Shown: in pieces, positions 13,101 through 64,000 of the stretch
How positions within the stretch are numbered: position 1 is the first letter of the stretch
How the letters are laid out: each line of letters begins with the position of its first letter
Translations under genes and position numbers: made by a program
Assembly (NCBI RefSeq): GCF_033568475.1
Contig: NC_133122.1
Coordinates: forward strand, 65,619,442 to 65,683,441
Source: Henckelia pumila
Lineage: Eukaryota; Streptophyta; Magnoliopsida; Lamiales; Gesneriaceae
Direction of reading: 5' to 3'
DNA length: 64,000 nt
The notes under the pieces: model-generated
The model's input: only the letters and a program-made list of their open reading frames with translations
Database searches by the model: none
What the model was told of the DNA's origin: nothing

Positions 13101-16100
13101 TTTTTTTTGTCTAAAATTTTTCTCCTGATTCGATTATCTTTCTGTTCTTTCTGGCCTTGTATCCCTAGAACCTCCAAAATGTCCCTCATGGTAGTTCTTT
13201 TGATGCATAAAATCATTAGATGTGAAAGAGGATGGAAGCAAAACAAGTGCTGGCATGTATCTACTTCTCAACAACTTGATGTCCATTCCGTTGGGAATGT
13301 TGCTAACGCAAGATTGAGGTTGCATCCTAAGGGCCTTGAACTAAAATTTAGAGTTGGCATAGACCAAGAAGCATGCATTTCGAAGAAACACAAAATGCCA
13401 CAAATATTGGGCTAATTGCTCCGCAGAGCCCCCCTAGCATTGCGAAAAAGTCTAAAAGGCATACAGGTCCTCCCCTAATATTAATAGGCTAATGTATCAT
13501 CCAATTTATAAAAATCAAGCACGTGTAATCCCATTCGTTAAAAAAATTCAAGCAATTTTATTTACCTCCATTTGGTAAGGGGTTTTATCCTTGAATTTTA
13601 AAAGCATGGGGTTTTTCAATTGCAATTAATATTACACAAGTGGTTTTCGTTTTTTGAATTTTTACAGGAGGTACTGATAAAATTTGTCCCCGCAAGTTTC
13701 TTGATACCTTATTTGCTAGTAACAAGTTTTTTGTAACTTGCCTCTCCACACTTCTTTTCTTACCGCGCAGATAGCCTGCACATCAATAAAAAGCAGTGAA
13801 GTTCATGTTTATGAACATTGGGTATGTATCCTCTGAACCGGTCGAGGTAAGCCTTGTTTCACCTTTCTTCAATGAAGTTCCTGCATTCTTAGTCTTAACT
13901 AAAAACCTACCTTACTTTTTATCCTGGGAATCTCATCGATGATGCACAAAGACTTGTCAAGTTAACACTTAACAAGCAGACCTAAAATTAAAAAAAAACT
14001 AATGAACGTGATGATATCGAAGGTTGAGCCACTTTATATGATATCCTCTGAATAGTGATGATAAAGAAAGGGAAACCATGGATTCAACTAAAAAAACAGC
14101 TAATCCGTTAGATCTCTTCTGGGCTGATAATGACAGACCTCATGCAATTCATTCGGTTCTGATTCCTCCTTGTTTTCTTTCGTAACTGGTATGATATACA
14201 AAGAAGCAGTTTTGTTGGTAAGCTTGTCGTATATGGGCAATCTATGATAGCATCCTTACCAAAATTTGCATTTTCATCGAAGTCTGATCCATTAGTCTTT
14301 TGATGAAATTTCTGATGAATGCATCAGTTGGACTGAGAGAAAATAACATGAATGAAAAGCTTGAATAGGCACCAATTACTCTTATGCCTGATACTTTTAA
14401 GACAAAGAACAAGCATTTAATTTGTTTGGAGGTGGTGTCGGTCTACTGAAATCGTAGATCAGTATTTTTTGTTGTAGCTGTTATAAGTTTGCATTTGTGT
14501 TTCATCTTTCTGTGTACTTTTATATGCAGGTGCTAAGAAAGAGGCCCAATATCACTGTTCATGGGATTAATGCTCATAAAGGTTTCTCAGACATAGCTTT
14601 TTCTTCTGATGACAACTCAAGGTTTAAAACTATAGGACTCTTGCTTTGAAATTTTTTAGTTTCTAAAGAGCGAGAGGCATCGTCTTCTCCATGATTTTCA
14701 ATCCATGGTATATTGCAAGAGAAATTATATAAGTGTTTATGATGTTAGGGAAGCCAAGAATTCATTTAAAAAGATGGAAGAATAGGGACAAGTGATCTTT
14801 GGAGGATAGAAAGTAGGTTATTGAGGTAACATTGTTTTGATTAGACCGACCTCAGAGAAAAACGATAATTTAGAGCAAAAAATTTAAGGTGCTGTGCTTC
14901 GTGATGCTTACTTTCTTACTGTTATTTTATTTTAGTTATATGCTGACAAGTCTTTCATTTCTTGTGGGCTGCTTTGTGATAATATGCCTCAATAGGTTGC
15001 TTGCTTCTGATGCTAATGGATCAATTAATGTGTGGGATAGAAGAGCTAGCGATCTTCCCTGTTTGGAACTCTCAACCAATTCCTCTGGCTCACTTAACAG
15101 TATTAAGTTAAGTAGGGATAATGAGGTATGATTTTTATTGAAGTTGACTAATGAGGCAAAAAAAAAAAACCCTTTATTTCACCACTCACTTTCAATGACA
15201 GGCTATAGCCATCACTTTATTTTGTTGAGCCTGTAGATTATATTTGGAGCTAGCAAGCAGGGAATTATATATATGTGGGATCTCCGTGGAGGACGATCAT
15301 CTACAGCTTTCAGTAATCATAAAGAGGTATGGGCATTTCTAGTTTATGCCACTGATTTGGCTCAGAGGACCTTTTATTCTAACATTGTTGGGCATAAAGT
15401 CTGCGTCATATAATCAAAAAGAAAAAAAAAAACAAACAAACAGCAAAGATAGAAAGACGTGTAAGATTGAGATTGTGCTGGATGAATAGCTCAAACCCAT
15501 TATCTTAAGAAGAAATTTTTCTTGACTGATCGATAGCCAGTTAGCCATAACAGTAGCTTTGCTTATTTAGGGATATTGTTCTCCTCTTATTGCGGTGAAG
15601 TTATCACATGAGCTGGAGAAGATATGGTCCTTAAAGGTATGCAAGATAATCCACATCAGTTTTCTAATTCTATACTGCATCAATTGTTGTGCTGAAATTT
15701 TCTGACCCATTTTTCATCGTTTACGTAAAATATCTGGGCTGGTTTCATTGAATCCAACTGTTTTTTTTGGGAACCATTTCTGAAGAGGAAAATATTACTT
15801 TACTCAACTATATTGTTGTCTGCAAGATAATTTCTGTAGATACTATTTGTTTGTTGTCTCAATAATGCCTTGTGGAAGAATTTTATTTGGTATGTAGATG
15901 TTGGGACTACTGATTCACATGCTCCACTATGTTATCAATCAAATTCCGCTCAAGCACATGTTGGGTTATGTTATGAAGGGCAATTCAAGTTTCATTAGTC
16001 ATATGTTAGTATGTTACTGTACTATTGCAACTTTAAAAGAGTTAGCAAGACCACCATTTTTTGTGCTATTCTTGTAAGGAATCTCACATCAGGCCTTTGT

Positions 16101-20839: not shown

Positions 20840-22569
20840 TGTTGCATATGAAAGCAAGCAACAATGACCCCCATGTCTTTTTTAAAATTTGGAGGAAAGA
20901 AATGATGAACAAGTTTGAGCATGCCAATGGATAAATGTGATTCTTTTAATCGGTGATGTTCGCTACTTCACATACAAATAACATTAAACCTACTTGGTAA
21001 CTTAGGACAAGAAGGCCCCACGAAATGTAGAATTTGATGAAAACTCCAAATTATGCTGGACCAACTTTATGTTTTATATTTATCCTAGAAGACTAGATTA
21101 TCGAACGACTTAATCAAAACAAACCTAGACAGATACATTCTTAATTGGTGTACATAGATTAATGGTCAAATACTCTTTCAAAAAGCTTGGGAAATGGTTT
21201 GGTTAAATTCAACCCAAATGCATCCACATTCAGTAAATCAAAAAGGGGCTAAAATTAGATCGAGCAACGACGAGAAATTAGATATTTTACACACTAGATA
21301 CCCAACATAGTATCATCTATATAACCTTCATAATTTAATGTTATTATTCAATAACATATTTTGATCGTTCTCCCAACAAAAAAAAATTACGAAAAACATG
21401 AAATAGTGAAATACTGTGTCGCTGAGATCCTCTTTAATTAAATGCTCTAAAGCAAACAGTCATGAAGCGTTAAGGACAACATAACGGCTACAACTACCGG
21501 GGGAAAAGCCATGGCCCCCAAAAGCTCTTTTTATTTATCTGTTTATTTTAATCTTTTTTTTTTTTAAACCTTTAATTCAAGTGAAAATAGTTCATATTAA
21601 CCATTAATTCAAATATTTGAATATGGAAAAAGAAATTACAAAAAAAAAAACTGAATTATTATAGTGGAACATGTGCATTAAAATTATTGCCTCATGACCT
21701 GTTGAAGATCAATTAATAGTCATTTTCATTCCTTGTTTAATGTTCGATGGATTTGATCCATTTTTGTTTTTCATGTGTCACACTCGAGTATGAGTATCCA
21801 TTGAATATCGCCGATATGAAATCACGTCAGCCCAATCTTTTGATTTGATATAATATTATAAAATAAAACAACATAAGAATAAATTAATTAATACATGTTA
21901 GAAGTCATTATTCCATATCGTATTACGAATTTAGAACCATCGATAAAAAAAAATAATAAAATAATAAAAAAAACACACGCGACACCAATATATTTTACTG
22001 GGACAAAAAGTAACTACTAACACTACTTTTCCCCACCAAAATCCAAAGCTCCTTCTATGGTAGGGACCTGTATATCAAATATTTTACATAGCATGCATCT
22101 CTTTTTCGCAGCATATATAGTCACGAACACAAATTTTTTATTTTTTTTATTTATATATATATATCTTAATTTATTCATAAAACAAATAAATTGCTCACCC
22201 TTGATCAAATTCTTGAATCCCATGATATATTTTTTTTTTTTTCTATTTATATCACCCCAATTAGACCCTTCGTCTCTTACTCTCAATTATTCGATCCCAA
22301 CCCTTTAAATTTCCTCCCTTAGCTTCCAATGATTCCCTCCACATTTTAGAGGACAAAGAATCATGGTGATCGAGTTGCATGTTGAAGTTGAAATTATGAT
22401 CTAGTAGCCCACAAAGCAGACACCAAATTCAAGTGCCAAGTTCGTGAATTAAGTTTTTGTATAAAGATCAAGAAACCGGCCAGATGTGTACATGATACAC
22501 ATGTAAACATATATATAATCATAAGTAGAATATATATATAAGACACATATATAGTCTAATTAATTAACG
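18179..22569. other. AT-rich intergenic region
   Basis: About 4.4 kb separates the WD40 stop from the LBD start. It contains short AT-rich repeats (for example ATCATAT-type runs near 19280-19335) and a TA microsatellite at about 20800-20839. I see no coding exon, RNA gene or well-defined transposon. The last few hundred bases must include the LBD promoter and leader. Confidence 0.5.
20800..20839. repeat. TA dinucleotide microsatellite
   Basis: About twenty TA units with one phase slip, in intergenic DNA. Confidence 0.9.
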
Positions 22570-30590: not shown

Positions 30591-31597
30591 TTCCTTTATT
30601 TAAAAGTTTTATTTGGAAATAAATGTTGATCTTCTATTAATAAAGTAAATATAAATAATGTATTTTTTTCTCTTATAAACCATGATAATCATAAACAATT
30701 ATTGTAGCTTGACTTGTTTTGATTCTCAATCATCTTGGTCATACATAATAACATATTCAAAATTTTTTACGTATATTTTTTCCAGTTTATTGAATAAATT
30801 TGTTTGTTTGATTTCGATAATCAAATTTAAATATAAATTAGATAATAATATAGTATAAAAAATAATCGATATTCTAACAAAAAATATAGAAATAAAAATA
30901 ATATTTTTATAATATAAACTCTGTGTGTTATAGTATATACAAATATATACAAAGAGTATTTAATTCAATTATACAAATAATTATTTAATTAATGATATAT
31001 ATATATATACATATTTTTCATAAGTTCATCAAACTCTTGTTTTAAAAAATCTAACATATTAATATGTGGTAAATATCTTTTTTCAAAAATCAAATTCATA
31101 TAATTTGCAACAATCAATCCAAACTTTTCTTTATACTTTTATTTGTTCAAATCTTGTAAAATTTTGTTCAAAAAACTCTTAGAAAATTAATTTTAGTGGA
31201 ACTGGTGACATTATTTTAAATTATCTTTTTTTCTTCCTATTCGAGATTATAAGTATATAAATAAATTTTTTTAATTTTTTTATTGTTATCGCTAATAACA
31301 TAGTTTCTAGTCTAGATATATTATATTAATATTTCTTGAACCTTTAATCAAGTATATGAAGAGAATAATTTTATGTCGTCTAATCTCATTACCTTTAGTT
31401 TTTCAACCATTATTTTATACAACAATGCTTTGATAAAACATTAATATGTTTTCTGCTTAATTTCTTCAATAGTAATCTAATCGAGTTGTTTTAAATTTGA
31501 TATACATATAAATTACATGTTGTTTTACATGTCATAAAAAATATTTATATATGGAGTAGTGTAATAATTAATTTATAATTTTTAAGAATAGTATGTT

Positions 31598-34500
31598 AAA
31601 TATATTATTTGAAAAAAATATGAGCAGATAAAAAAATGCGAAGAAAAATATTTTTTAGAGGATGAACAATCATATGTTAAACAAGTTAGAATTTTTTATA
31701 CTCAATATTTCAAGGATTTAAGTAAATTAGATATAAGAGTAATTTGTCTGACATAAAAATCGATTTGAGTGTAGTGTTTTTCTACTTTTTGTCACGCAAA
31801 TATTTACGATTTCATAAGTATAAAATTAATTGATTATATTAGTCAACTATTATATACTGTAGTACAAACATCAACATGAAACTTAGTAATAATCATTATA
31901 TCTATATCTCGTTTATTTAAACTACAATTATTTTTTTATCTTTCTCAATTATATAGTATAGTTTTCATATTAAATATCATTTGTATTATTCTTTTAACAA
32001 TTTACCCCTATTAAATTCATAAAATGTGTAATTATTTTATTTTATTAAAATTTCACTAAATAAGGGCAAAATGAGAAATTTATTTTTTCAAATACTTTCT
32101 TAATATATATGTGAAAATACACACAAGCCTAAATTAGTACGTAGGACAAAATGAGTATATATATATTTTTTACCTTGGACAAGAAAATATTGATGTTGTT
32201 GATTACATTTGTAGTCCCTAAAATTTCAAAAATATTATACAATTAGTCATTACCATTTGTTTTATAATATCTCTTCCTAAAAACTGAAATTTCAGAAAGT
32301 CTAGTTAGATGATCAAATCTAAAAAAAATAAATGAATTATTGAATAAAGGATGTGGGTACATTTTCTATATAAATAAAATATTAGAACCTCGACTTATGA
32401 CATGATTTCACTCGTCTTGAATACAATGGTGAAAGTTAATGGTTTGATTTAATTTTTTTTATTTTTCTTAAAATTTTAATAATCAAAATATTACGTTAAA
32501 ATAGTATAGTAAATTAAAAACGTAACTATGACAATAAAACTGAAATAAGTCGAAAAAATTAATTTTTTTTTTAAAATTTATAGAGCAAAAATTAAGGTAG
32601 TTTTCAATAATTACTTTTTATTTTCATGAGTGTCACAATATAGATTTAGGACATGAATTAAATATTAACAATTAATTTACCTTTAATAAATAAATGAACA
32701 CACAAAATGATATGAATTAAATATTAACAATTAATCTAACTTGAATAAATAAATTAATAATCTATAAAATGACATGAAAAACCTTAAAAACCCTTGAAAA
32801 TGACAAAAATATTAATTATTAAAAGAAATAATGAGGACAAAATTGTAAATTCATTACCAAAAATGTCAAAATATGGATTTAGGACATGAATTAAATATTA
32901 ACAATTAATTTACCTTAGATAAATAAATTGACACAAAAATTGATATGAATTAAATATTAAAAATTAATCTACCTTGAATAAATAAATTGATTAATGTATA
33001 AAATAAATGCAAGACCTTAAAAACCTTGAAAATGACAAAATATTAATTATTAAATGAAATAATGATGACAAAATTATAAATTGACAATTAAAAACCAAAT
33101 AACTAATGAAATAATGAGGGTATTGAAAAAAATTCACAATTCAAACTTGTATATTTATATAGAATAATAGATAAATATATTATTTGAAAAAAATATGAGC
33201 AGATAAAAAAAATGCGAAGAAAAATATTTTTTAGAGGATGAACAATCATATGTTAAACAAGTTAGAATTTTTTATACTCAATATTTCAAGGATTTAAGTA
33301 AATTAGATATAAGAGTAATTTGTCTGACATAAAAATCGATTTGAGTGTAGTGTTTTTTCTATTTTTTGTCACGCAAATATTTACGATTTCATAAGTATAA
33401 ATTAATTGATGATATTAGTCAACTATTATACTGTAGTACAAACATCAATATGAAACTTAGTAATAATCATACTATCTATATCTCGTTTATTTAAACTACA
33501 ATTATTTTTTATTTTTCTCAATTATATAGTATAGTTTTCATATTAAATATCATTTGTATTATTTTTTTAACAATTTATCCCTATTAAATTCATAAAATGT
33601 GTAATTATTTTATTTTATTAAAATTTCACTAAATAAGGGCAAAATGAGAAATTTATTTTTTCAAATACTTTCTTAATATATATATGTGAAAATATACACA
33701 AGCCTAAATTAGTACGTAGGACAAAATGAGTATATATTTTTTTTTACCTTGGACAAGAAAATATTGATGTTGTTGATTACATTTGTAGTCCCTAAAATTT
33801 CAAAAATATTATACAATTAGTCATCACCATTTGTTTTATAATATCTCTTCCTAAAAACTGAAATTTCAGAAAGTCTAGTTAAATGATCAAATCTAAAAAA
33901 AATAAATGAATGATTGAATAAAGGATGTGGATACATTTTCTATATAAATAAAATATTAGAACCTCGACTTATGACATGATTTCACTCGTCTTGAATACAA
34001 TGGTGAAAGTTAATGGTTTGATTTAATTTTTTTATTTTTCTTAAAATTTTAATAATCAAAATATTACGTTAAAATAGTATAGTAAATTAAAAACGTAACT
34101 ATGACAATAAAATTGAAATAAGTCCAAAAAATTAATTTTTTTAAAATTTATAAAGAAAAAATTAAGGTAGTTTTCAATAATTACTTTTTATTTTCATGAG
34201 TGTCACAATATAGATTTAGAACATGAATTAAATATTAACAATTAATTTACCTTCAATAAATAAATGAACACACAAAATGATATGAATTAAATATTAACAA
34301 TTAATCTAACTTGAATAAATAAATTTAATATTCTATAAAATGACATGAAAAACCTTAAAAACCCTTGAAAATGACAAAAATATTAATTATTAAAAGAAAT
34401 AATGAGGACAAAATTGTAAATTCATTACCAAAAATGTCAAATTATGGATTTAGGACATGAATTAAATATTAACAATTAATTTACCTTGGATAAATAAATT

Positions 34501-34916
34501 AGACACAAAAATTGAAATGAATTAAATATTAAAAATTAATCTACCTTAAATAAATAAATTTAATAATGTATAAAATAAATGCAAGACCTTAAAAAATCTT
34601 GAAAATGACAAATTATAATTATTAAATGAAATAATGAGGACAAAATTATAAATTGATAATTAAAACCAAATAACTAATGAAATAATGAGCAAAAATTGAA
34701 ATGAATTAAATATTAAAAATTAATCTACCTTAAATAAATAAATTTAATAATGTATAAAATAAATGCAAGACCTTAAAAAATCTTGAAAATGACAAATTTT
34801 AATTATTAAATGAAATAATGAGGACAAAATTATAAATTGATAATTAAAACCAAATAACTAATGAAATAATGAGGGTATTGAAGGAAATTCATAATTCAAA
34901 CTTGTATATTTATATA

Positions 34917-34917
<1 letters not shown>
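31598..34917. repeat. Large AT-rich tandem duplication, about 1.58 kb unit, two copies
   Basis: Copy 1 runs 31598-33172 and copy 2 from 33173 to about 34917. Both open with AATATATTATTTG and then ATGAGCAGATAAAAAAATGCG, and end near ATTCAAACTTGTATATTTATA. Similarity looks well over 90 percent. Each copy contains two degenerate sub-repeats of about 233 bp built on TTTAGGACATGAATTAAATA (for example 32641 and 32874). Copy 2 has one further direct duplication of about 183 bp (34506-34688 and 34689-34872), which makes it longer. No coding potential is seen. Confidence 0.85.

Positions 34918-34918
<1 letters not shown>

Positions 34919-34947
<29 letters not shown>
34919..34947. repeat. (TAA)n microsatellite
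   Basis: About nine TAA units lie at the right edge of the large tandem duplication. Confidence 0.9.
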
Positions 34948-47372: not shown

Positions 47373-48973
47373 TGAATCACTTACTAATCAAAAGCTTAAG
47401 CATGCATTTAACTTAATCAAATAAAATATCAGCGAACTCATTAACTGCCGGAAACTTAAACCAATAATAAACATATTGTTTACAAACCATATCGATATAA
47501 AACTCAGCTGTATAAACCCAAATACCAACTGAAACAAATAAAGCATCTTGAGGGACAATAACCCTGCTGGTCCCTCCTATCGCTCAGCTCTCCTCTGGAA
47601 CCACCAGCATCGGCAGCGCAGGACCTGCCCCATGAAATAGGGTGTCCCAGATACAACAAAGTACGAGAAATGTGAAGCATGATAAGCTCAGCTACGAGGA
47701 GTAATGGAGTATACGGTGTTATGTGTGCATGTATGCCAAGTGGAACCTAGGTACCAAGAATTCAGGTCAAGAAACTGCTCATTAGACCGGTGCCCCGGGT
47801 ATATATGCACGCTGAGCCAGTCGCATCAGGGAGGTGGCTCATATACCCAGTTTTGGATACATGGTGACCTGGATACTAGTACATGTGTCCAACCATAAGT
47901 GTGACCTGACACAAGACTTCGTATACAACCATCCCAACACAACTCGACTAGGGTTAAGCGCCCTACTACAGGCTACTCTAAGACCTCAAAGCTCAATATG
48001 ATCATGTATGCAACATACAGTCATGACATGCTGTATATATAAAGGCATATAAAATATTGCACTCACCATAAACACATGAAAACACATAATACATGCATAA
48101 TCAATAAGCTGGATATCTCGATATTACATACTTACTGTACCTCATTACCACTAGGCAAGCTAGGCCAGCACTATGTCCAAGGCCTACAGTCAGTACTACA
48201 ATAGCAAACGTACTCATGCATTACCCGACTTTATTCTAACCAGTCCTTAAACTACGCTATAGTCCATTACTCAACCTATTTACTTTAAAGAGCCAGAGAC
48301 CTAAATCCTGCGTCCGTTGTCAGCACTGATTGTGGATTAGCCCCAGAACTTGGGGCACCACTCGGACGTACCCCTGGAGCTCCGCCTCGCCAACCTACTG
48401 GACCCCCGCCTAGGAAGGCTAGACTCACCCTAAAAACACCTAGAATACTCTAAAAAAACGATGAGAGAAGATGTGAGATTGGTATGAAATTGTGGCCCTC
48501 GGAAACCCCTAATTTCATTAGGCCTCGATCGGAAGCTTCGATCACCTGATCGCTAGCTCCGATCACGGTGCATGTTTGCCACGTTTTGGACGGCCGAGAT
48601 CGGAAGCTCCCGATCGCAGGATCGCGAAAGCTCGATTCTCCTGCATCTAGGCCACGTGTTTAACAATCTCCTTGACACCTGTTTTGGTTTGAGATTGGAA
48701 GCTCCGATCTCAGGATCGGAAGCTCCGATCTGCCCGGAAGCTCCGAACTGTTTTCTCATGTTTTCGAAACTGGGTTTGGGCCCCAAGACCCCACACCGGG
48801 ACCTACCCTCCATTTACGGACGTTCTCCCACGATCTGATTTTCCCACTTATATATTTTGCCAATTAAGGACTCCATTAAACATTGTTTATGATACTTTTA
48901 AAAATTATATGTCATTTTCGCTAACATGTTTAAAACTCTACTTAATCTTGTAAAATGGAACCGGGCTACTACA
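47373..48973 (-). repeat. LTR of element 1
   Basis: About 1.6 kb, TG...CA bounded. It carries a cluster of GATCGGAAGCTCCGATC-type palindromes (48527-48740). It is related to the element 2 LTR but has an extra block of roughly 400 bp in its left half (about 47560-48000). Confidence 0.75.
48527..48740. repeat. Palindrome cluster (GATCGGAAGCTCCGATC type) in the element 1 LTR
   Basis: About six more or less intact copies of a 16-18 bp palindrome lie singly or in pairs, with a GTGCATGTTTGCCAC spacer that is shared with the element 2 LTR. Confidence 0.85.
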
Positions 48974-50303: not shown

Positions 50304-50310
50304 TGGTATC
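50304..50310 (-). mobile_element. First seven bases of the element 2 LTR, left of the element 3 insertion
   Basis: The sequence TGGTATC precedes element 3, and after element 3 the sequence resumes GTATCACCTACTAAC. Removing element 3 and one GTATC gives TGGTATCACCTACTAA, which matches the left end of the element 1 LTR (TGAATCACTTACTAA). The bases before it (CTGCA, 50299-50303) are the candidate target duplication of element 2. Confidence 0.75.
50306..50310 (+). repeat. Target site duplication GTATC, left copy
   Basis: GTATC directly left of element 3 is repeated directly right of it (60448-60452). Five bases is the normal length for Ty3/gypsy integration. Confidence 0.9.
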
Positions 50311-53012
50311 TGAAACGGCACCTCAACTCTATAAAAAATAAAATAATGCGGAAATTTTTTTTTCTTTATACTACTAAATAAAACTGTACACATATGCACA
50401 TACATATATGCACAGAATAAAATAATAAAAATAAATACATGGACTAAATAAATAAATAATTAAATTACTTAAGAAACCAATGCAATCCTTAAATAGAATT
50501 AAACATTTGAGTCAAACCCTAGGAATTAAGCAATATACTGCATAATTAAAATTAATAAACTGTGTCAATGTTCATGCACCCTAAGAAATATTTAATAAAA
50601 TATTCCAAATAAACCTCACCCAATAAAAATATTAAAATGTATCATGACACTCAAAACATTGGTGACTCAGAAGCTGTCACGGTCACGGGGCTACTGCCAG
50701 GCCGTCGTGTCTATACATCCTCCAACCACCGGTAGGAGGTAACCTGCTCCTCTTACGTACTCACACTACATGGCACCATATCAGTGTAGTGAGGCTAGAG
50801 GCCCAAAAACCATACTAACAAAGGGTTCTAAAATAAATTTAAAAAAATTTTGAATACTAATACATAACATATACATGAAATGAGCAGGCTTAAAATTACA
50901 TAACATACCGTACTTAAATAAACATAAAATACATAATACAATAACATACAAATACTTTGATGTTGTTGAGCATTTATTTACTTAACAATCGAATGGTCCT
51001 ATACGTAAGTGTGACCCATATAATTATAGTGCGACTGATCCAGTCTAAGAAACCATCGTACGAGGCTGTGGTGGCCGAACCACCCATAATAAATGGGCAG
51101 AAACTGCCCATACATAAATGGCAGAGAAAACTGCCACCCATTAAATGGCCACACTACCTTAAAATTTTCCAACTAAATATATTTTATATTGCTCAACCAT
51201 AGAATTTCAATCATAGCCATTAAAAATTGAATTTTCATGAATGCAGTCAATACTTAAATAACATTGTGTGTTCTCCATATATATTTAATTTACTTTTCTA
51301 ACTAACATATAAATATTTTAAACCATCCCAACTTAAATGCATAAAAATAATTACCTAATTATATAATCAGGACACATGCAATTTTCTCATGGGTTGATAC
51401 AGCTGCTGGCCCAACTTACAAAAAACTTAATTACAAATTATTCAAAATCCCAAAAATAAATAAAATAACCCATAATAATTTAATGGAACCATAAATTAAA
51501 TGGTTCATACTTCAATTTTGGGAATTTAATTAGTTCATTTAATTCCTAATAACCTTAAAAACTTAAAAATCAAAATACACGAGCCCAAAATAAAATAAAA
51601 CGGACCCGGACCCCCGTTAATACCTTCAACCACTAAACCCTACTGACCTCGAACCGGACCCAAGTACCGACCCGGAACACCACCAAAACCCTAGAACCCG
51701 ACCGCCCCCTTCTCCATTCTTCTCGTCCGAAGAGAGCGAGCAGGCCTTCTTGGCCTGCTTGACCGGCCGGCTCCGGGCCACCACTGGGGCGGGGCCGCCG
51801 CCGCCCGGACGTAGCACCACTTACGGGCGGTACCTAACCCACCAAGGGGCCCCAGCCCGCCCCATGCAGCCAGGAACAACCGTGCCGCAGCACTGTCTCT
51901 CCCAAACCCTACAAATGTGTCCAGAACCAATCAGGCTTGCCCATGGTTCAATTCGAATCCAGGCCGATCCTAGCCCATTCCAGCCCTTGTCCGGCCCTAC
52001 CACATCGACCATTAGGGACCCCAAGGAACCCTTCTAACCATTGGACCAGCAGCCACCTAGCCATGGACATGAAAAACGTTGAGCAAAATGAACACCATGA
52101 AGCCAAACCGAGTGCAAAATAGAGAAAGGATTTATGACAAAACTTGCTGTCAAAAAAACGTTGAGTCTCGGACACTACACACCCACACACATACATACAT
52201 TGATTTAGGATTTAAAAGGGACAGAAAAATCATGCTTAACACGATTGATAGAGCTAAAAACCGTTGATACGTCGGGCTTCGGGACGACAGGGGCGGAAGA
52301 CGGGGTGACTTCGAGCTAGAAACTCACGGCTCAAGCTTCATGGATGGTGATTGGCCGATGATGAAAGCGATGAGCAGGTGAGGGTGACGGCTGATGAGGG
52401 AAAGAAAAAGTGATCGGCTAGTAGGGTTGGGTAGAAAAGGTTTTCATTTTTTTTTTGTTTTGTGTATAATTAACAATATAGGTTTAGTAATAAAATATAA
52501 ACGTTTTCTTAAGAATATTAAACTACACAAACATTTATACTCCTAATTAAACTTTACATAAATCTGATAACATACAGAAAAATCTTCGAAATATTTAATT
52601 TAAGGGGATTTTAAAAATACTAAAAAGTCTCACCCAGAAATATTCTTGACTTAATTTTGGGATAAACCTGACCCCTAAATTTAAATAAAATAGAAATACT
52701 TAACATTTTGGAGATAATAAAACTCAAAATAATATTTTTACAGGCTCTAAAAAGGCTCATAAAATAATTTGGGAATTGAAAAAGTCGTCCAGTCTCGTTG
52801 TCCACGGTCCCGTCTACGCCGGATCAAATAATAAACATACATAAACCTCATAAAAAATCCCTAATTTTGGGTTAATATGCTTAAAATAAATTAAATCATG
52901 CACTAATTAATTCACATAATTATTTAACCCAAAAATCATAATTTTAAATAACTTAAATATACTAATTATGCAGGCGAATTTATGTAATTAAAAATAACAC
53001 GGTGTTGTTACA
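50311..53012 (-). repeat. 3' LTR of element 3 (left copy, 2702 bp)
   Basis: It starts TGAAACGGCAC and ends GTTGTTACA on the plus strand. It aligns along its whole length with the right copy but is about 200 bp longer. A GC-rich core (about 51600-52100) sits in AT-rich arms. Confidence 0.9.
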
Positions 53013-57941: not shown

Positions 57942-57943
57942 AC

Positions 57944-60447
57944 TGAAACGACCCTAACTCTATAATAAATAAATATGCGGAAATTTTTTTTTTATACTAC
58001 CAAATAAAATATGTACATATATGCCCATACATATATGCACAGAATAAAATATTTAAAATAAATACATGACTAAATAAATAAATAATTAAATACTTAAGAA
58101 AAATGCAATCCTTAAAATAATTAAACATTTGAGTCAACCCTAGAATTAAAAATATACTGCATAAATAAAATAATAAAATGTGTCATGCACTAAAAATATT
58201 TAATAAAATATTCCAATAAACCTCAACCAATAAAAATATTAAAATGTATCATGACACTCAAACATGGTGACTCAGAAGCTGTCACGGTCACGGGGCTACT
58301 GCAGCGCTGCTCATACATCCTCACCACCGGTAGGAGTAACCTGCTCCTCTACGTACTCACCTGCACCATATCAGTGTAGTGAGCCTAGAGGCCCAACATG
58401 CATACTAACAAGGGTTCAAAATAATTTAAAACAATTTAATACTAATACATACATATACATGAATGAGCAGGCTTAAAATTACATAACATAACTTACTTAA
58501 ATAAACATAAATACATAATACATAACATACATACTTGAGTTGTTGAGCATTTATTTTCTTAACATCGAATGGTCCTATCCGTAAGTGTGACCCATACTTA
58601 TAGTGCGACTGATCAGTCTAAGAAACCATCGTACGAGGCTGGTGGCGAACCACCCATACATAAATGGCAGAAACTGCCCATACATAAATGGCAGAAAACT
58701 GCCCATAAATGGCCACACTACTTCAATTTCCAACTAAAATATTTTATTTGCTCAACCATAGAATTTCAATCATAGCATAAAAATTGATTTCATGAATGCA
58801 TATACTTAAATAAATTGTGTGTTCTTCATATATATTTAATTTAATTTTCTTACTAACATATAAATATTAAAATAACTTAAATGCATAAAAATAATTAAAT
58901 ATATAATCAGGACACATGCAATTTTCTCATGGGTTGATACAGCTGCTGGCCAACTTAAAAACTTAATTAAAAATTATTAAAAGCCCAAAAATAAATAAAA
59001 TAACCCAAAATAATTTAATGGAACCCAAATAAATTAAATGGTACTAATTAAATTTTTGGGAATTTAATTAGTCCATTTAATTCCTAATTAACTTAAAAAC
59101 TTAAAAATAAAATACCCGAGCCCAAATAAAATAACCCGGACCCGGACCCACTTAACTTAACCCACTAACCTACTGACCCGACCCGGACCCAAGACCCGAC
59201 CCGGAAACCACCAAAACCCTAGAACCCGACCGCCCCCTTCTCCATTCTTCTCGGCCGAGAGCAGCAGGCCTTCTTGGCCTGCTGCCGGCCGGCTCCGGCC
59301 ACCCCTGGCCGGGCGCCGCCGCCCGGACGTAGCCCACGTCCGGGCGGACCTAACCCAACCAGGCCCCAGCCCCCATGCAGCCAGGAACCACCGAGCCGCA
59401 GCCTTTCTCCCCAAACCCTAATCTGTGCAGAAAATTGGCAGCCATGGTTCAATTCGAACCAGGCCGATCCTAGCCCATTCCAGCCCTTGTCCGGCCCTAC
59501 CACTCGACCCTAGGGACCCCAAGGAACCCTTCTAACCATGGACCAGCAGCCCACCTAGCCATGGACATGAAAAACGTGAGCATGAACACCATGAAGCCAA
59601 ACCGAGTGCAAATAGAGAAAGGATTTGAAAAACTTGCTGTCAAAAAAACGTTGAATCTCGGCACTACACACCCACACACATACATACACTGATATAGGAT
59701 TTAAAAGGGAAGAAAATCATGCCTTAACACCGATTGATAGAGCTAAAAACGTGTACGACGGGCTTCGGGACGACGGGGCGACGACGGGGTGACTTCGAGC
59801 TAGAAACTCACGGCTAAATCTTCTTGGATGGTGATGGCCGATGATGAAGAGCTGAGAGGTGAGGGTGACGGCTGATGAGGGAAAGAAAAGTGATCGGCTA
59901 GTAGGGTTGGGTAGATTAGGTTTTATTTATTTTTTTATTTTTTTGTGTTAATTAAAATATAGGTTTAGTAATTAAATATAAAAGGTTTTAAATATTAACT
60001 ACACAACTTAAACTCCTAATTAAACTTTAAAAATCTGATAACATAAGAAAAATCTCGAAATATTAATTTAAGGGGATTTTAAAAATACTAAAAAGTCAAT
60101 ATTTTGACTAATTTTGGATAAAAATGACCCCTAAAAATTAAATAAAATTAAATACTTAAAATTTTGAGATAATAAAACTTAAAATAATATTTTAAGGCTC
60201 TAAAAAGGCTCATAAAATAATTTGGGTGGAAAGTCGTCATCTCGTCCGTCCACGGTCCCGTCTACGCGATCAAATAATAAAATACTAAAAATCATAAAAA
60301 TCCCTAATTATGGGTTAAATGCTTAAAATAAATTAAATCATGCATAAATAATTCACATAATTATTTAACCCATAAATCATAATTTTAAATAATTAAATAT
60401 CCTAATTATGCAGGCGGATTTATGTAATTAAAAATACCGGGTTTACA
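57944..60447 (-). repeat. 5' LTR of element 3 (right copy, 2504 bp)
   Basis: It starts TGAAACGACC and ends GGGTTTACA on the plus strand, with TG...CA termini. The GC-rich core is at about 59150-59600. Confidence 0.92.
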
Positions 60448-60452
60448 GTATC
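60448..60452 (+). repeat. Target site duplication GTATC, right copy
   Basis: Matches 50306-50310; see that entry. Confidence 0.9.
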
Positions 60453-61110
60453 ACCTACTAACTGGCAACTAATAGCATGCATTAAACTTAATACAGCAAA
60501 ATAACTTAACAGAGTAAGACATGCGGAAACAAAACCATAATATACATATCAGCTTAGTAACATAATCTAGACTTAAATCTGTAGTGATACAACCAAATCG
60601 AAATCTTAAACAGTAAACATTATAATGCTATATCGAATCCTGCTGTATAATAAAATCCTCAAGGCTCAACGTGTATATGCACATGACATACAAGTATAGA
60701 AAACGACAAATCATACATCATGTCATATAACAATGCCAAATAAATGCAACATATAAACATGTATACTCGCTGGCAATCTCAGTCAATGTGTACGTACCTC
60801 TAGGCTAGTTCAAGTATAATAGGATCCTAGGTTCCAAGCCTATATTCAAAAGTTCATCGTATCACTACATAAATTCTATAAGCCTTAACTAAGCTAATAA
60901 GTACTCCCAAAACTTAAATAGATTCCCGAACCATACCTTCGTCCGTAGTTAGCTCTTTGAAGTCGCTAGTCCCGGATGACTATAACCACACCTTGGTTAT
61001 TCCAGAACCTTTATTTTAACCGATAGGGCCCTCAAGTGTATATCTCACACTATATAACTGAATAAAGAAACTCGGGAATTCGTAATTCAGAAATGAATCT
61101 GAGAAGCCCT

Positions 61111-61117
61111 ATTTATA
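61111..61117 (-). promoter_or_regulatory. TATA box of the element 2 LTR promoter
   Basis: On the minus strand the sequence reads CCTATAAATAGGGC, a near-consensus plant TATA box at a sensible U3/R position for leftward transcription. The matching place in the element 1 LTR (near 48510-48525) is decayed. Confidence 0.75.
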
Positions 61118-61133
61118 GGCAAATTTCTCGGCC

Positions 61134-61400
61134 AGGATCGGAACTTCCGATTTCGGGATCGGAGCTTCCGATCCAGCTCATTGCGTGCATGTCTGCCATG
61201 CCAGGATCGGAACTTCCGATCTACGATCGGAGCTTCCGATCTGCTCTATGATCAACACTTATCAAAACTCGCGACTGAGTCATCGATCATTTCTGGCAGC
61301 TGGGGATCGGAACTTCCGTTCCAGGATCGGAGCTTCCGTTCCGATCGGAGCTTACTATCCAGGATCGGAGCTTACTATCTGGGATCGGAGCTTACTATCC
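61134..61400. repeat. Palindrome cluster (GATCGGAGCTTCCGATC type) in element 2 U3
   Basis: About nine copies of GATCGGA(A/G)CTTCCGATC or half-sites ending CTTACTATC, several in closely spaced pairs, begin about 20 bp upstream of the TATA box and extend about 290 bp. Confidence 0.9.
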
Positions 61401-61643
61401 GGCCCAAAATTAAAAAGCCCAAATTTTACTTCTGAAGTCCAATAACACTCCGAAATTGGTTAAATACCAACCCTTAATCATGTTTAACATATTATTATCT
61501 TAAAATAGTATCTGGGTTACTACATTCTCCCCACCTTTAGATATTTCGTCTGCGAAATAACATCTAAAGACAAATCAAGATAACAATATGAAACATCAAA
61601 CCATGCCTTATTACAACAATGGTAATTACATCTTACATGGTAA

Positions 61644-63107
61644 TCAAAAATACAAAGCAAACAACTCAGGATATTCTGCTTGCATACGACTCTCAGTTTC
61701 CCAAGTTGCTTCTTCAATGCCTCGGCGCTGCCACTGTACCATCACAAGTGGTATAGTCTTGTTCCGAAGAACTTTCTCCTTCCTGTCTAGGATACAGATT
61801 GGTCGTTCAACAAAAGACAGATCTGGCTCTAGCTGAATATCAGTAGACTGAATCACATGAGATTCATCAGCTATGTACTGTCGAAGCAACGACACATGAA
61901 AAACATTATGTATACTGGAAAGAGATGGCGGTAAAGCCAAACGATAAGCAACATCTCCGATCTTCTCCAGTATCTGAAAAGGCCCAATGTAACGAGGAGA
62001 CAACTTGCCTTTCACACCGAATCTCATCACCTTCCTAAAAGGTGATACTCGCAGAAAAACATATTCACCAGGCTCAAACTGAAGTGGCCTGCGGCGAATA
62101 TTCGCATAACTGGCTTGTCTATCTTGAGCAACTTTGATCCTATGCTTGATTAAATCTACCTTGTCTACAATCTGCTGCACCAATTCAGGACCCTCGACTT
62201 GCCGTTCCCCTACTTCATCCCAGAATAACGGAGTACGACACCGTCGACCATACAATGCCTCGAAAGGTGCCATATCAATACTACGATGATAACTGTTATT
62301 GTAGGCAAATTCAATCAAAAGTAACTGATCTTGCCAAGATAAGCCAAAATCCATGACAGAAGAACGTAGCATATCCTCCAGCGTACGAATAGTGCGCTCT
62401 GACTGTCCGTCAGTCTCCGGATGATACGCCGTGCTCAAACTCAGAGTGGTACCCAACGCCTGCTGAAAACTACCCCAAAAACGTGAAGTAAATCGCGGAT
62501 CTCTATCACTGACTATACTCACTGGAATCCCATGTAATCGCACAATCTCCTGGATATATAAGCGTGCCATGCGATCATAAGAATACTCCCGGTTATAAGG
62601 AATGAAATGTGCTGATTTTGTTAAACGGTCAATGACAACCCAGATAGCATCACACTGACGTAAAGTCATAGGCAAGTGGGTAAAAAAATCCATAGTCACG
62701 TGCTCCCACTTCCATTCGGGAATCTCAAGATTCTGCAGTAATCCACCTGGTCGTCGATGTTCAGCCTTGACCTGTTGACAAACCAAACATCTCGAAACAA
62801 ACTGATAAACACTTCGCTTCATTCCCTTCCACCAGAATCTAGTTCGCAAGTCCTTATACATTTTCATACTTCCAGGATGAACTGATAATCGACTCCTGTG
62901 AGCTTGAGATAGAATATCATTCCTGAGCTCCGCAACATTAGGTACAACCACTCTATTGGATAGGCACAATAAACCATCTGCCTGAAAATGGAATCCAGAT
63001 GTATTAACTCCATTGGCTAGACGTGCCAATCGCTGAGTCTTAACATCAGATATCTGAGCATCTCTGATCCGAGAATATAATGCTGGCTCAGATAGAATAG
63101 TATACAA
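61644..63107 (-). mobile_element. Integrase and chromodomain region of element 2
   Basis: An open frame of 487 codons. It shows the HHCC zinc-binding region (HPGSMKMYKDL, CLVCQQVKAEH), the integrase core (DRLTKSAHF, VSDRDPRFTSRFW, TAYHPETDGQSERT), and a C-terminal chromodomain-like tail with VQWQRRGIEEATWE. The chromodomain marks chromoviruses, which use it to target chromatin. It is a fossil retroelement part, not a host gene. Confidence 0.88.
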
Positions 63108-63124: not shown

Positions 63125-63460
63125 CTAGTCCTGCCTTGAACTACCAGCTCCGTCCATCCTGCGACCTGCCCCATGGAATAGGGTGTCCAAGATAACAACT
63201 AGGACGTGAGCGCTACGCTCAGTACATAGACATGAGTAAACATATGTATATAATGCATGCAACATGATGTCTGGTAAAAGATCATCTGAAAAGTCATGCT
63301 CAGAACCGGCGCCATATGAGTGCTGCCACCGCACGGATCAACCTCTGGGTGCAACCACACTCGTCTAGTACACCAGAGTAGACAGACATAAATGCCCCCG
63401 CCGTCGCGGTACTCTCAGTGACAGACTATCGAGTATAGAGTTGAGCGGCTCTATAATCAG
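63125..63460. repeat. LTR-like segment inside element 2
   Basis: It contains GACCTGCCCCATGGAATAGG and GTGTCCAAGAT, closely matching part of the element 1 LTR (around 47620-47660), although element 2's own LTR lacks that block. It lies between the integrase region and the gag-like region. Confidence 0.65.
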
Positions 63461-63966
63461 GTATAACAAGGAATATGCTCAACAAATCCACTAGGCTGTG
63501 CTGGCATCATCAACTGTCCACGCCTGTTGCTGGTCTCCACAAGACGGCAACGGTTCACCAAAGTCTCATAAGACACCGGGTCATCACATACGACAACCTG
63601 TGCGCAGATATCTTGGTTCAGGCCTTGCAGAAAGATATCATACTTCGACGCATCACTCGCATTGATATGAGGACTGAAAGGTAGCAGATCAAGAAATCGC
63701 TGCTGATACTGATCAATAGTCATTGATCCTTGCCTCAAAGTAAGCAACTCCATAGATCGTGCTTGGCGAACAGCCGGAGGAAAATACAATTTCTGAAACT
63801 CCCGACAGAAATCCCCCCAAGTCACCTGTCCTCTCTCAGTACGTGCCTGAGCAACCTTGGCATCCCACCAAAAACGTGCTCTATCTTCTAGAACAAATTC
63901 TAGAACTTCCAGTTTCTGCTCCTCAGTACACTCGAAAGCTCGGAACGTGCTCTCAAGTTTAGACAT
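63457..63966 (-). mobile_element. Gag-like region of element 2
   Basis: An open frame of about 169 codons of the retrotransposon gag type (FWWDAKVAQAR, TWGDFCREFQKLYFP, LTLRQGSMTIDQY). It differs clearly from the gag of element 3, so the two belong to different subfamilies. It continues beyond the frame end toward the window edge. Confidence 0.75.
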
Positions 63967-64000
63967 CCAGCTTCTAGCTTGTTCAGGATTCTCGCCTCCC

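Follow-up and report, generated by a model that had tools for sequence, protein, structure and literature searches.

The window (the whole stretch of 64,000 nucleotides of Henckelia pumila DNA that was analysed) carries parts of two LTR retrotransposons, termed here elements 1 and 2, which are both located on the minus strand. The 5' LTR of element 2 lies just beyond the window end (G000:C3:65683718-65684791) and the following parts of this element were found within the window:

60448..61524, minus strand: 3' LTR of element 2, which starts with TGTAGTAACC at 61524; 1,077 bp aligned to the 5' LTR
61110..61117, minus strand: TATA box TATAAATA of element 2, from its sequence
61525..61535, minus strand: polypurine tract GGTGGGGAGAA adjoining the 3' LTR, from its sequence
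61644..63107, minus strand: integrase ORF with H2C2 and SH3_Tf2-1 domains; rve and a C-terminal chromodomain-like stretch are below cut-off
63457..63999, minus strand: gag ORF with a Retrotrans_gag domain; Ty3_capsid is below cut-off and the frame is still open where the window ends

The two LTRs of element 2 are 98.5% identical over 1,077 bp, with 13 mismatches and 3 gaps, and since substitutions were observed at 1.2% of the sites the insertion is probably young. The 5' LTR ends in ...CACTACA and its last 17 bp are absent from the 3' LTR at 60448. Directly after the 5' LTR end is TGGTATCAGAGC, which we take to be a primer binding site of the initiator-Met type. At the C-terminus of the integrase, the Pfam Chromo model was matched at the expected place with an E-value of 1.1e-4 and 22.5 bits, against a cut-off of 25.1 bits; a chromodomain in this position presumably marks a chromovirus and the Tekay/Del-like lineage name would apply. 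Locus L089 on contig C1 has a palindrome cluster on either side, and the domains RVP_2, RVT_1, RNase H and Integrase_H2C2 were observed there in that order. This order, together with the gag and integrase domains of element 2, identifies the array-bearing family as a Ty3/gypsy LTR retrotransposon, which we describe as chromovirus-like and highly amplified. A Sirevirus was ruled out, since these are Ty1/copia elements with integrase before reverse transcriptase and the integrase of L089 comes after it.

The LTR starts of element 2 are 3.8 kb apart as compared with about 6.1 kb for the other pairs in the same candidate set and therefore, element 2 is probably internally deleted. Three LTR pairs on contig C3 have the 3.8-kb spacing (G000:C3:56304118-56308518, 56372390-56376798 and 65680391-65684791) and these are perhaps one internally deleted form that has since been copied. 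Next to element 2, a direct repeat of 2.5-2.7 kb was observed (50310-52996 and 57943-60436, 88% identity, about 7.6 kb apart), the second copy of which stops 12 bp short of the element 2 LTR end. These repeats may represent long LTRs that belong to a different and older element adjoining element 2. Nested tandem duplications were also found in AT-rich DNA at 31574-34930, where 1.5-kb copies are 96%, 184-bp units 99% and 233-bp units 90% identical.

The U3 regions of both elements contain arrays of 17-bp palindromic units, which were located as follows:

61136..61152, minus strand: unit 1 of element 2, closest to the TATA box, one mismatch
61157..61173, minus strand: unit 2, perfect arms
61185..61201, minus strand: conserved spacer with an RY-like CATGCA, GTGCATGTCTGCCATGC on the plus strand; similar in element 1 and other LTRs
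61205..61221, minus strand: unit 3, perfect arms
61225..61241, minus strand: unit 4, perfect arms
61305..61321, minus strand: unit 5, one mismatch
61325..61341, minus strand: unit 6, one mismatch
61343..61359, minus strand: unit 7, two mismatches, half GATAGTA
61363..61379, minus strand: unit 8, two mismatches, half GATAGTA
61383..61399, minus strand: unit 9, two mismatches, half GATAGTA
48527-48748, minus strand: U3 array of element 1, partly decayed, with units near 48527, 48548, 48598, 48693, 48714 and 48732

As both elements are on the minus strand, it is in minus-strand reading that the array precedes the TATA box. The original prediction of about nine palindromes in the U3 of element 2, some 20 to 290 bp from the TATA box, agrees well with the nine units found: both 7-bp arms are free of mismatches in three of them, three have one mismatch and three have two. 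Read in the element direction, their starts lie between 282 and 35 bp ahead of TATAAATA, and the nearest unit ends 18 bp away from it. Units 7 to 9, which are farthest from the TATA box (61343-61399), have one half changed from GATCGGA to GATAGTA in the element direction while the other half is intact. Both altered letters are invariant among the 30 rows of family 2, an alignment made up of the window and 29 loci from the best 40 matches among 3,908 candidates. The GATAGTA halves were therefore inherited and amplified rather than being a product of decay after insertion.

A similar cluster and spacer had also been predicted in the LTR of element 1, which starts at 48973, and both were found there, the spacer being GTGCATGTTTGCCA in element 1 and GTGCATGTCTGCCA in element 2. 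The TATA box of element 1 has decayed, with CTAATGAAATTAGG located where element 2 has CTATAAATAGG. The asymmetric centre of the unit is inverted between the elements (AGC or AGT versus GCT, element direction) while the direction of the spacer is unchanged. With up to two mismatches allowed, 13 unit matches were obtained in the 64-kb window, of which element 2 has nine and element 1 four; among 20 dinucleotide shuffles of the window, 18 had no match and two had one.

The position of the palindromes was then compared across LTRs that were picked by the junction between polypurine tract and LTR of a sister subfamily and not by the palindrome itself. This junction was found 599 times in the genome with at most one mismatch, and the sample consists of 50 of the 100 junctions listed, all on contig C1. 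The core CGGA-N3-TCCG was observed at least once in 43 of the 50 LTRs and at least three times in 26, while seven have none. In the 42 LTRs with a recognisable TATA box, 129 cores occur in the 16,026 bp upstream of it and none in the 34,374 bp downstream, so that the predicted enrichment beside the TATA box, as checked in these LTRs, takes the form of an exclusively upstream location. The cores are often found at recurrent distances of 23, 44, 92, 113 and 181 bp, and units recur at steps of 20-21 bp. Half-sites without a recognisable partner account for 86 of the 475 half-sites in U3.

Patterns were also counted over the whole 884.7-Mb genome, with the reversed pattern serving as the control (given in brackets). 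TCGGA-N3-TCCGA was found at 140,037 sites (262), GATCGGA-N3-TCCGATC at 51,958 (0), GATCGGARCTTCCGATC at 30,905 (0), GTTCGGA-N3-TCCGAAC at 14,257 (2) and the mixed arms GAT/AAC at 22,190 (2). When the GATCGGA and TCCGATC arms were placed at other gaps, 53 sites were obtained for 0-2 nt (5) and 1,062 for 4-10 nt (4). Fifty of these 1,062 sites were listed, of which 49 have a gap of 8 nt and one a gap of 7 nt; 40 of the 50 are junctions of abutting units as at window 61325-61346 or close variants, eight are a second type, GATCGGA-TGAACTCG-TCCGATC, with its close variants, and two are others. The 8-nt centre of this second type is itself conserved and recurs, for example at C1:4915251 and C1:15637932. 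A perfect even-spaced 18-mer, GATCGGAAGCTTCCGATC, was considered as an ancestor and is unsupported, having one site in the genome. The fixed 3-nt spacing is partly due to descent. Thirty-two different centre triplets were observed among 296 units and no other gap counted reached comparable numbers. The first 100 GATCGGA-N3-TCCGATC sites listed fall into 38 clusters, 24 of which have a partner cluster at 5.3-6.5 kb (about 7.5% would be expected by chance), as expected of the two LTRs of one element.

To see what is constrained in the unit, we compared changes in its arms. When only the outer letters were used to identify units, 87 out of 169 were found to have the exact CGGA/TCCG inside, and an equal length downstream gave three matches, none with this core. 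At least 68 of the 82 units without the exact core deviate on a single side, as counted over the 30 commonest forms. A set of 296 units, in which up to three mismatches were allowed, was used to compare the seven arm pairs. Pair 2/16 was observed as A-T in 142 units and T-A in 101, with 40 one-sided changes, where 60 double changes would be expected if the letters were independent; it corresponds to GAT/ATC versus GTT/AAC and is the only compensated pair of the seven. At the other six pairs 0-1 compensated and 28-71 one-sided changes were counted, where independence would give 0.7-5.6 double changes, whatever their kind. The comparison is somewhat uneven, as A/T at pair 2/16 is free of mismatch cost whereas a double change elsewhere uses two of the three mismatches and is harder to see. 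The original prediction had named independent drift of half-sites without compensating changes as evidence against it; such drift is present at six of the seven pairs and is not what pair 2/16 displays. Genome-wide, the doubly changed core GATTGGA-N3-TCCAATC was found at 105 sites versus 51,958 for the unchanged form. The letters of pair 2/16 are correlated (r 0.39), mixed arms occurring 22,190 times versus 36,164 expected if independent, and since mixed arms are this common strict symmetry at this pair seems unneeded. These comparisons suggest a sequence-specific half-site, G-W-TCGGA, that would be read twice at a fixed spacing rather than a stem constrained by pairing only. Near-fixed half-site spacing, a free centre and a conserved half-site sequence are features of dimeric transcription factor sites, and all three were observed here.

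The centres in family 2, read in the element direction, are AGC (53), AGT (24) and ATC (1), whereas GCT, which is AGC in reverse complement, predominates in the sister subfamilies. Units occupy corresponding places before the TATA box in family 2 (35, 56, 104 and 124 bp) and in group 10 (23, 44, 92 and 113 bp). A unit can evidently lie either way round, because inverted centres are found at corresponding places and the CATGCA spacer keeps its direction.

As a test of selection, the diversity of the arms relative to the flanking DNA gave a mixed result, being favourable in the young family 2 and not in the divergent groups 10 and 11. In family 2, whose rows are the copies closest to the window, which counts against the contrast, arms and inter-unit DNA have values of 0.0136 versus 0.0324 at non-CpG sites and 0.0282 versus 0.0757 at CpG sites. 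The 12 CpG columns downstream of the TATA box (0.0218) were found to be no more variable than the CpG columns of the arms. At non-CpG sites the arms are not clearly slower in group 10 (0.179 versus 0.153 between units) or in group 11 (0.245 versus 0.294). Arms and inter-unit DNA in these two groups thus lie at 0.15-0.29 versus 0.04 in the U3 upstream of the array, which makes the array the most variable part of U3 in both groups large enough for analysis.

A tree was built from the LTR flanks of 42 of the 50 rows, with the eight rows lacking a recognisable TATA box dropped and the array columns excluded. Twenty of these 42 arrays are GAT-rich, 15 GTT-rich and seven mixed or neither, and 35 have one arm type at a ratio of at least 2:1. 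Arm type requires nine changes on the tree as compared with a mean of 18.1 in shuffles, none of the 200 shuffles being as low, while the well-supported branches alone force fewer changes (five for the GAT label, three for GTT and three for mixed). In our reading, arrays were repeatedly exchanged or switched, and we do not decide between the two since recombination between elements gives the same picture.

Other properties of the arrays were examined in the same 42 LTRs. The observed/expected ratio of CpG is 1.09 in the arrays versus 0.68 downstream. CATGCA occurs 40 times in the array regions versus 2.2 in shuffles (25 of the 42 LTRs; 18 occurrences downstream over the same length) and CACGTG 20 times versus 1.8 (18 of 42 LTRs; none downstream). 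We take CATGCA to be an RY element and CACGTG a G-box, and these motifs make it conceivable that the element is regulated in seeds or under stress. The heat-shock element GAANNTTC was rejected as it is not enriched, with eight matches in the 42 arrays versus 7.0 in shuffles. CCGAC, presumably the DRE core, and TGTCGG, presumably of ARF type, were rejected as neither occurs in the 42 arrays versus 42.2 and 8.1 in shuffles, respectively. The RNA of the 285-nt U3 array is predicted to fold at -110.8 kcal/mol (z -5.15), with none of 200 shuffles as good, whereas the equal stretch downstream has a z of +0.27.

The anatomy, location, spacing, core conservation, inversion tolerance and turnover of the arrays are established in this analysis. 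Judging from these features, the array is probably a U3 enhancer that precedes the TATA box and consists of sites read by a plant transcription factor acting as a homodimer. It would form the upstream activating region in U3 of a highly amplified, chromovirus-like Ty3/gypsy family, where each 17-bp unit would act as a dyad of inverted G-W-TCGGA half-sites (W is A or T) with three free nucleotides between the arms. We infer protein binding, a dimer and activation at the arrays: a homodimeric, sequence-specific plant DNA-binding protein would read both halves of the unit, and several units, often paired 20-21 bp apart, would bring several dimers to a position close before the TATA box, which in turn would drive transcription of the element. 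The originally predicted sites for a dimeric host factor are favoured by the upstream-only cores, the near-fixed 3-nt spacing, the free and invertible centre and the conserved core, while the one-sided changes at six of the seven pairs speak in part against them. This reading is also supported by the Sireviruses HOPIE, OPIE-2 and PREM-2, which are described as carrying CGGA-N3-TCCG upstream of their TATA box (PMC2829016). We counted against it the half-sites without a partner, the seven LTRs without an intact core, the unusually good RNA folding and the small share of published Sirevirus motifs (3 of 13 in PMC2829016) that have both this core and this spacing.

Alternatively, the palindromes might act as hairpins of RNA or single-stranded DNA, for example as small-RNA templates or by forming a structural signal in the transcribed U3 at the genomic RNA's 3' end. 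The contrast in z between the array and the downstream stretch favours such a role, as do the palindromes of maize Sireviruses described as small-RNA hotspots (PMC5311732, PMC10760457). A stem, however, predicts compensation at any pair and six of the seven pairs have one or no compensated change against 28-71 one-sided ones, the doubly changed core is rare (105 versus 51,958 sites) and a pure stem would not require CGGA. We take the one-sided decay of the arms to weigh more against a hairpin constraint than against a protein site, and consider the hairpin explanation unlikely.

The array might instead be a neutral minisatellite that grew by slippage, unequal exchange or template switching during reverse transcription from an ancestral unit that happened to be a palindrome. 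Recurrence of units at 20-21 bp, the rapid change of the array relative to the rest of U3 in two LTR groups and the predominance of one arm type in 35 of 42 arrays, as from homogenisation, are consistent with this origin. It accounts poorly for corresponding units that are inverted or have the other arm type in both halves, for centres that are free while the spacing is kept, and for the presence of the CGGA-N3-TCCG core upstream of the TATA box in unrelated Sireviruses (PMC2829016), and we regard it as quite unlikely. We find it more improbable still that the array is a CpG-rich chromatin module, in which the density of CG and CHG, as a methylation target or CpG-island-like stretch, would matter rather than one bound factor. 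The higher CpG ratio in the arrays (1.09 versus 0.68) and the CpG islands that are described as being defined by Sirevirus RM clusters (PMC2829016) point in this direction, but palindromy, the 3-nt spacing and the non-CpG letters of the arms are left unexplained.

A dimer-site enhancer of this kind has its closest known counterpart in the RM boxes of Sireviruses. Each RM-bearing element is described as having between 8 and 32 palindromic copies in its LTR, a short way before a conserved TATA box; the clusters are rich in CpG and 12 of 13 motifs have a CGG-CCG signature (PMC2829016). The arrays here are similar in having many palindromes with CGG-CCG shortly upstream of the TATA box and in being CpG-rich (PMC2829016). 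Three of the 13 motifs, those of HOPIE (CGGACCGTCCG) and OPIE-2/PREM-2 (CACCGGACTGTCCGGTG), have the CGGA-N3-TCCG core with its 3-nt spacing; the remaining ten are given with other cores or spacings, such as 2 nt in Usier and 4 nt in Osr9 (PMC2829016). CCG, the centre of the HOPIE motif, ranks second among the centres here, with 45 of 296 units, while the outer arms differ, being G-W-T here and CAC in OPIE-2 (PMC2829016). The carrier also differs, as the RM boxes belong to Ty1/copia and the arrays here to Ty3/gypsy elements, and the RM motif is termed Sirevirus-specific, being absent from the classic retrotransposons compared in that paper (PMC2829016, Bousios et al. 2010). The exact 17-mer was not found in the open-access papers searched, and six 15-mers gave one match there, a paper on human immunity that was judged to be a chance match from its title and the start of its abstract. 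No report of this palindrome array in Ty3/gypsy LTRs was found among titles and abstract starts of open-access papers; one paper listed there, PMC6911290, deals with palindromes as targets of insertion. Hence, a palindromic array before the TATA box is already described in Sireviruses and its occurrence in Ty3/gypsy is new within the open papers searched.

The LTR palindromes of maize Sireviruses are reportedly hotspots of small RNA, as Bousios et al. are said to have found in 2016. They resemble the arrays here in being clustered in the cis-regulatory region, in their high variability and in their strong predicted RNA structure (PMC5311732, PMC10760457). As a point of difference, the constraint observed on the array here is on core sequence rather than pairing. 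The U3 of Tnt1, a Ty1/copia element, has a palindrome (BI) and tandem repeats (BII) as its boxes, which are present in few copies. Like the family here, Tnt1 has activator boxes in U3 that are repeated or symmetric and precede the LTR promoter, and its U3 turns over between subfamilies; it is different in sequence, in class and in its low copy number of boxes. The symmetry of Tnt1 box I is mentioned in PMC2829016, and U3 is described as variable in PMC10794571.

As a lead only, proteins of the AS2/LOB (LBD) family may be considered candidate readers of the array, because their dimers are described as telling palindromic sites apart through a 'molecular calipers' mechanism (PMC10118128). These are plant-specific zinc-finger-like proteins that bind GCGGCG, which differs from the CGGA-N3-TCCG found here (PMC10118128). 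A measured LBD motif of the CGGA-N3-TCCG form was not found in the literature searched.

We tentatively raise the possibility, which is more doubtful than the enhancer itself, that Sireviruses of grasses (Ty1/copia) and this Ty3/gypsy chromovirus independently built U3 enhancers from CGGA-N3-TCCG because both exploit one deeply conserved dimeric plant factor, with about 140,000 sites for it thereby laid down in this genome and arrays switching repeatedly from GAT to GTT as in a recognition arms race. Should unrelated retroelements of different plants be driven by one and the same dyad, a single host factor would have been exploited repeatedly by plant retrotransposons, and a factor that reads the dyad would be findable by a simple pull-down. 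The roughly 140,000 sites in this one genome would in that case act as a large sink or reservoir for the factor and would supply nearby genes with ready-made regulatory sites. The data also help to separate the palindrome as a protein site from the palindrome as a hairpin, which is relevant to Sirevirus LTRs as well.

A pattern modelled on the OPIE box, CCGGA-N3-TCCGG, was also counted and found at 2,428 sites in the genome (control 208). In a listing of 50 of these sites, 47 read CCGGATTATCCGG or the complement form of it, and no listed site falls within an array. The sites stand singly, the first listed being at C1:49002, and some are 4.2-4.6 kb apart. This pattern probably belongs to a separate repeat family with one palindrome per copy.
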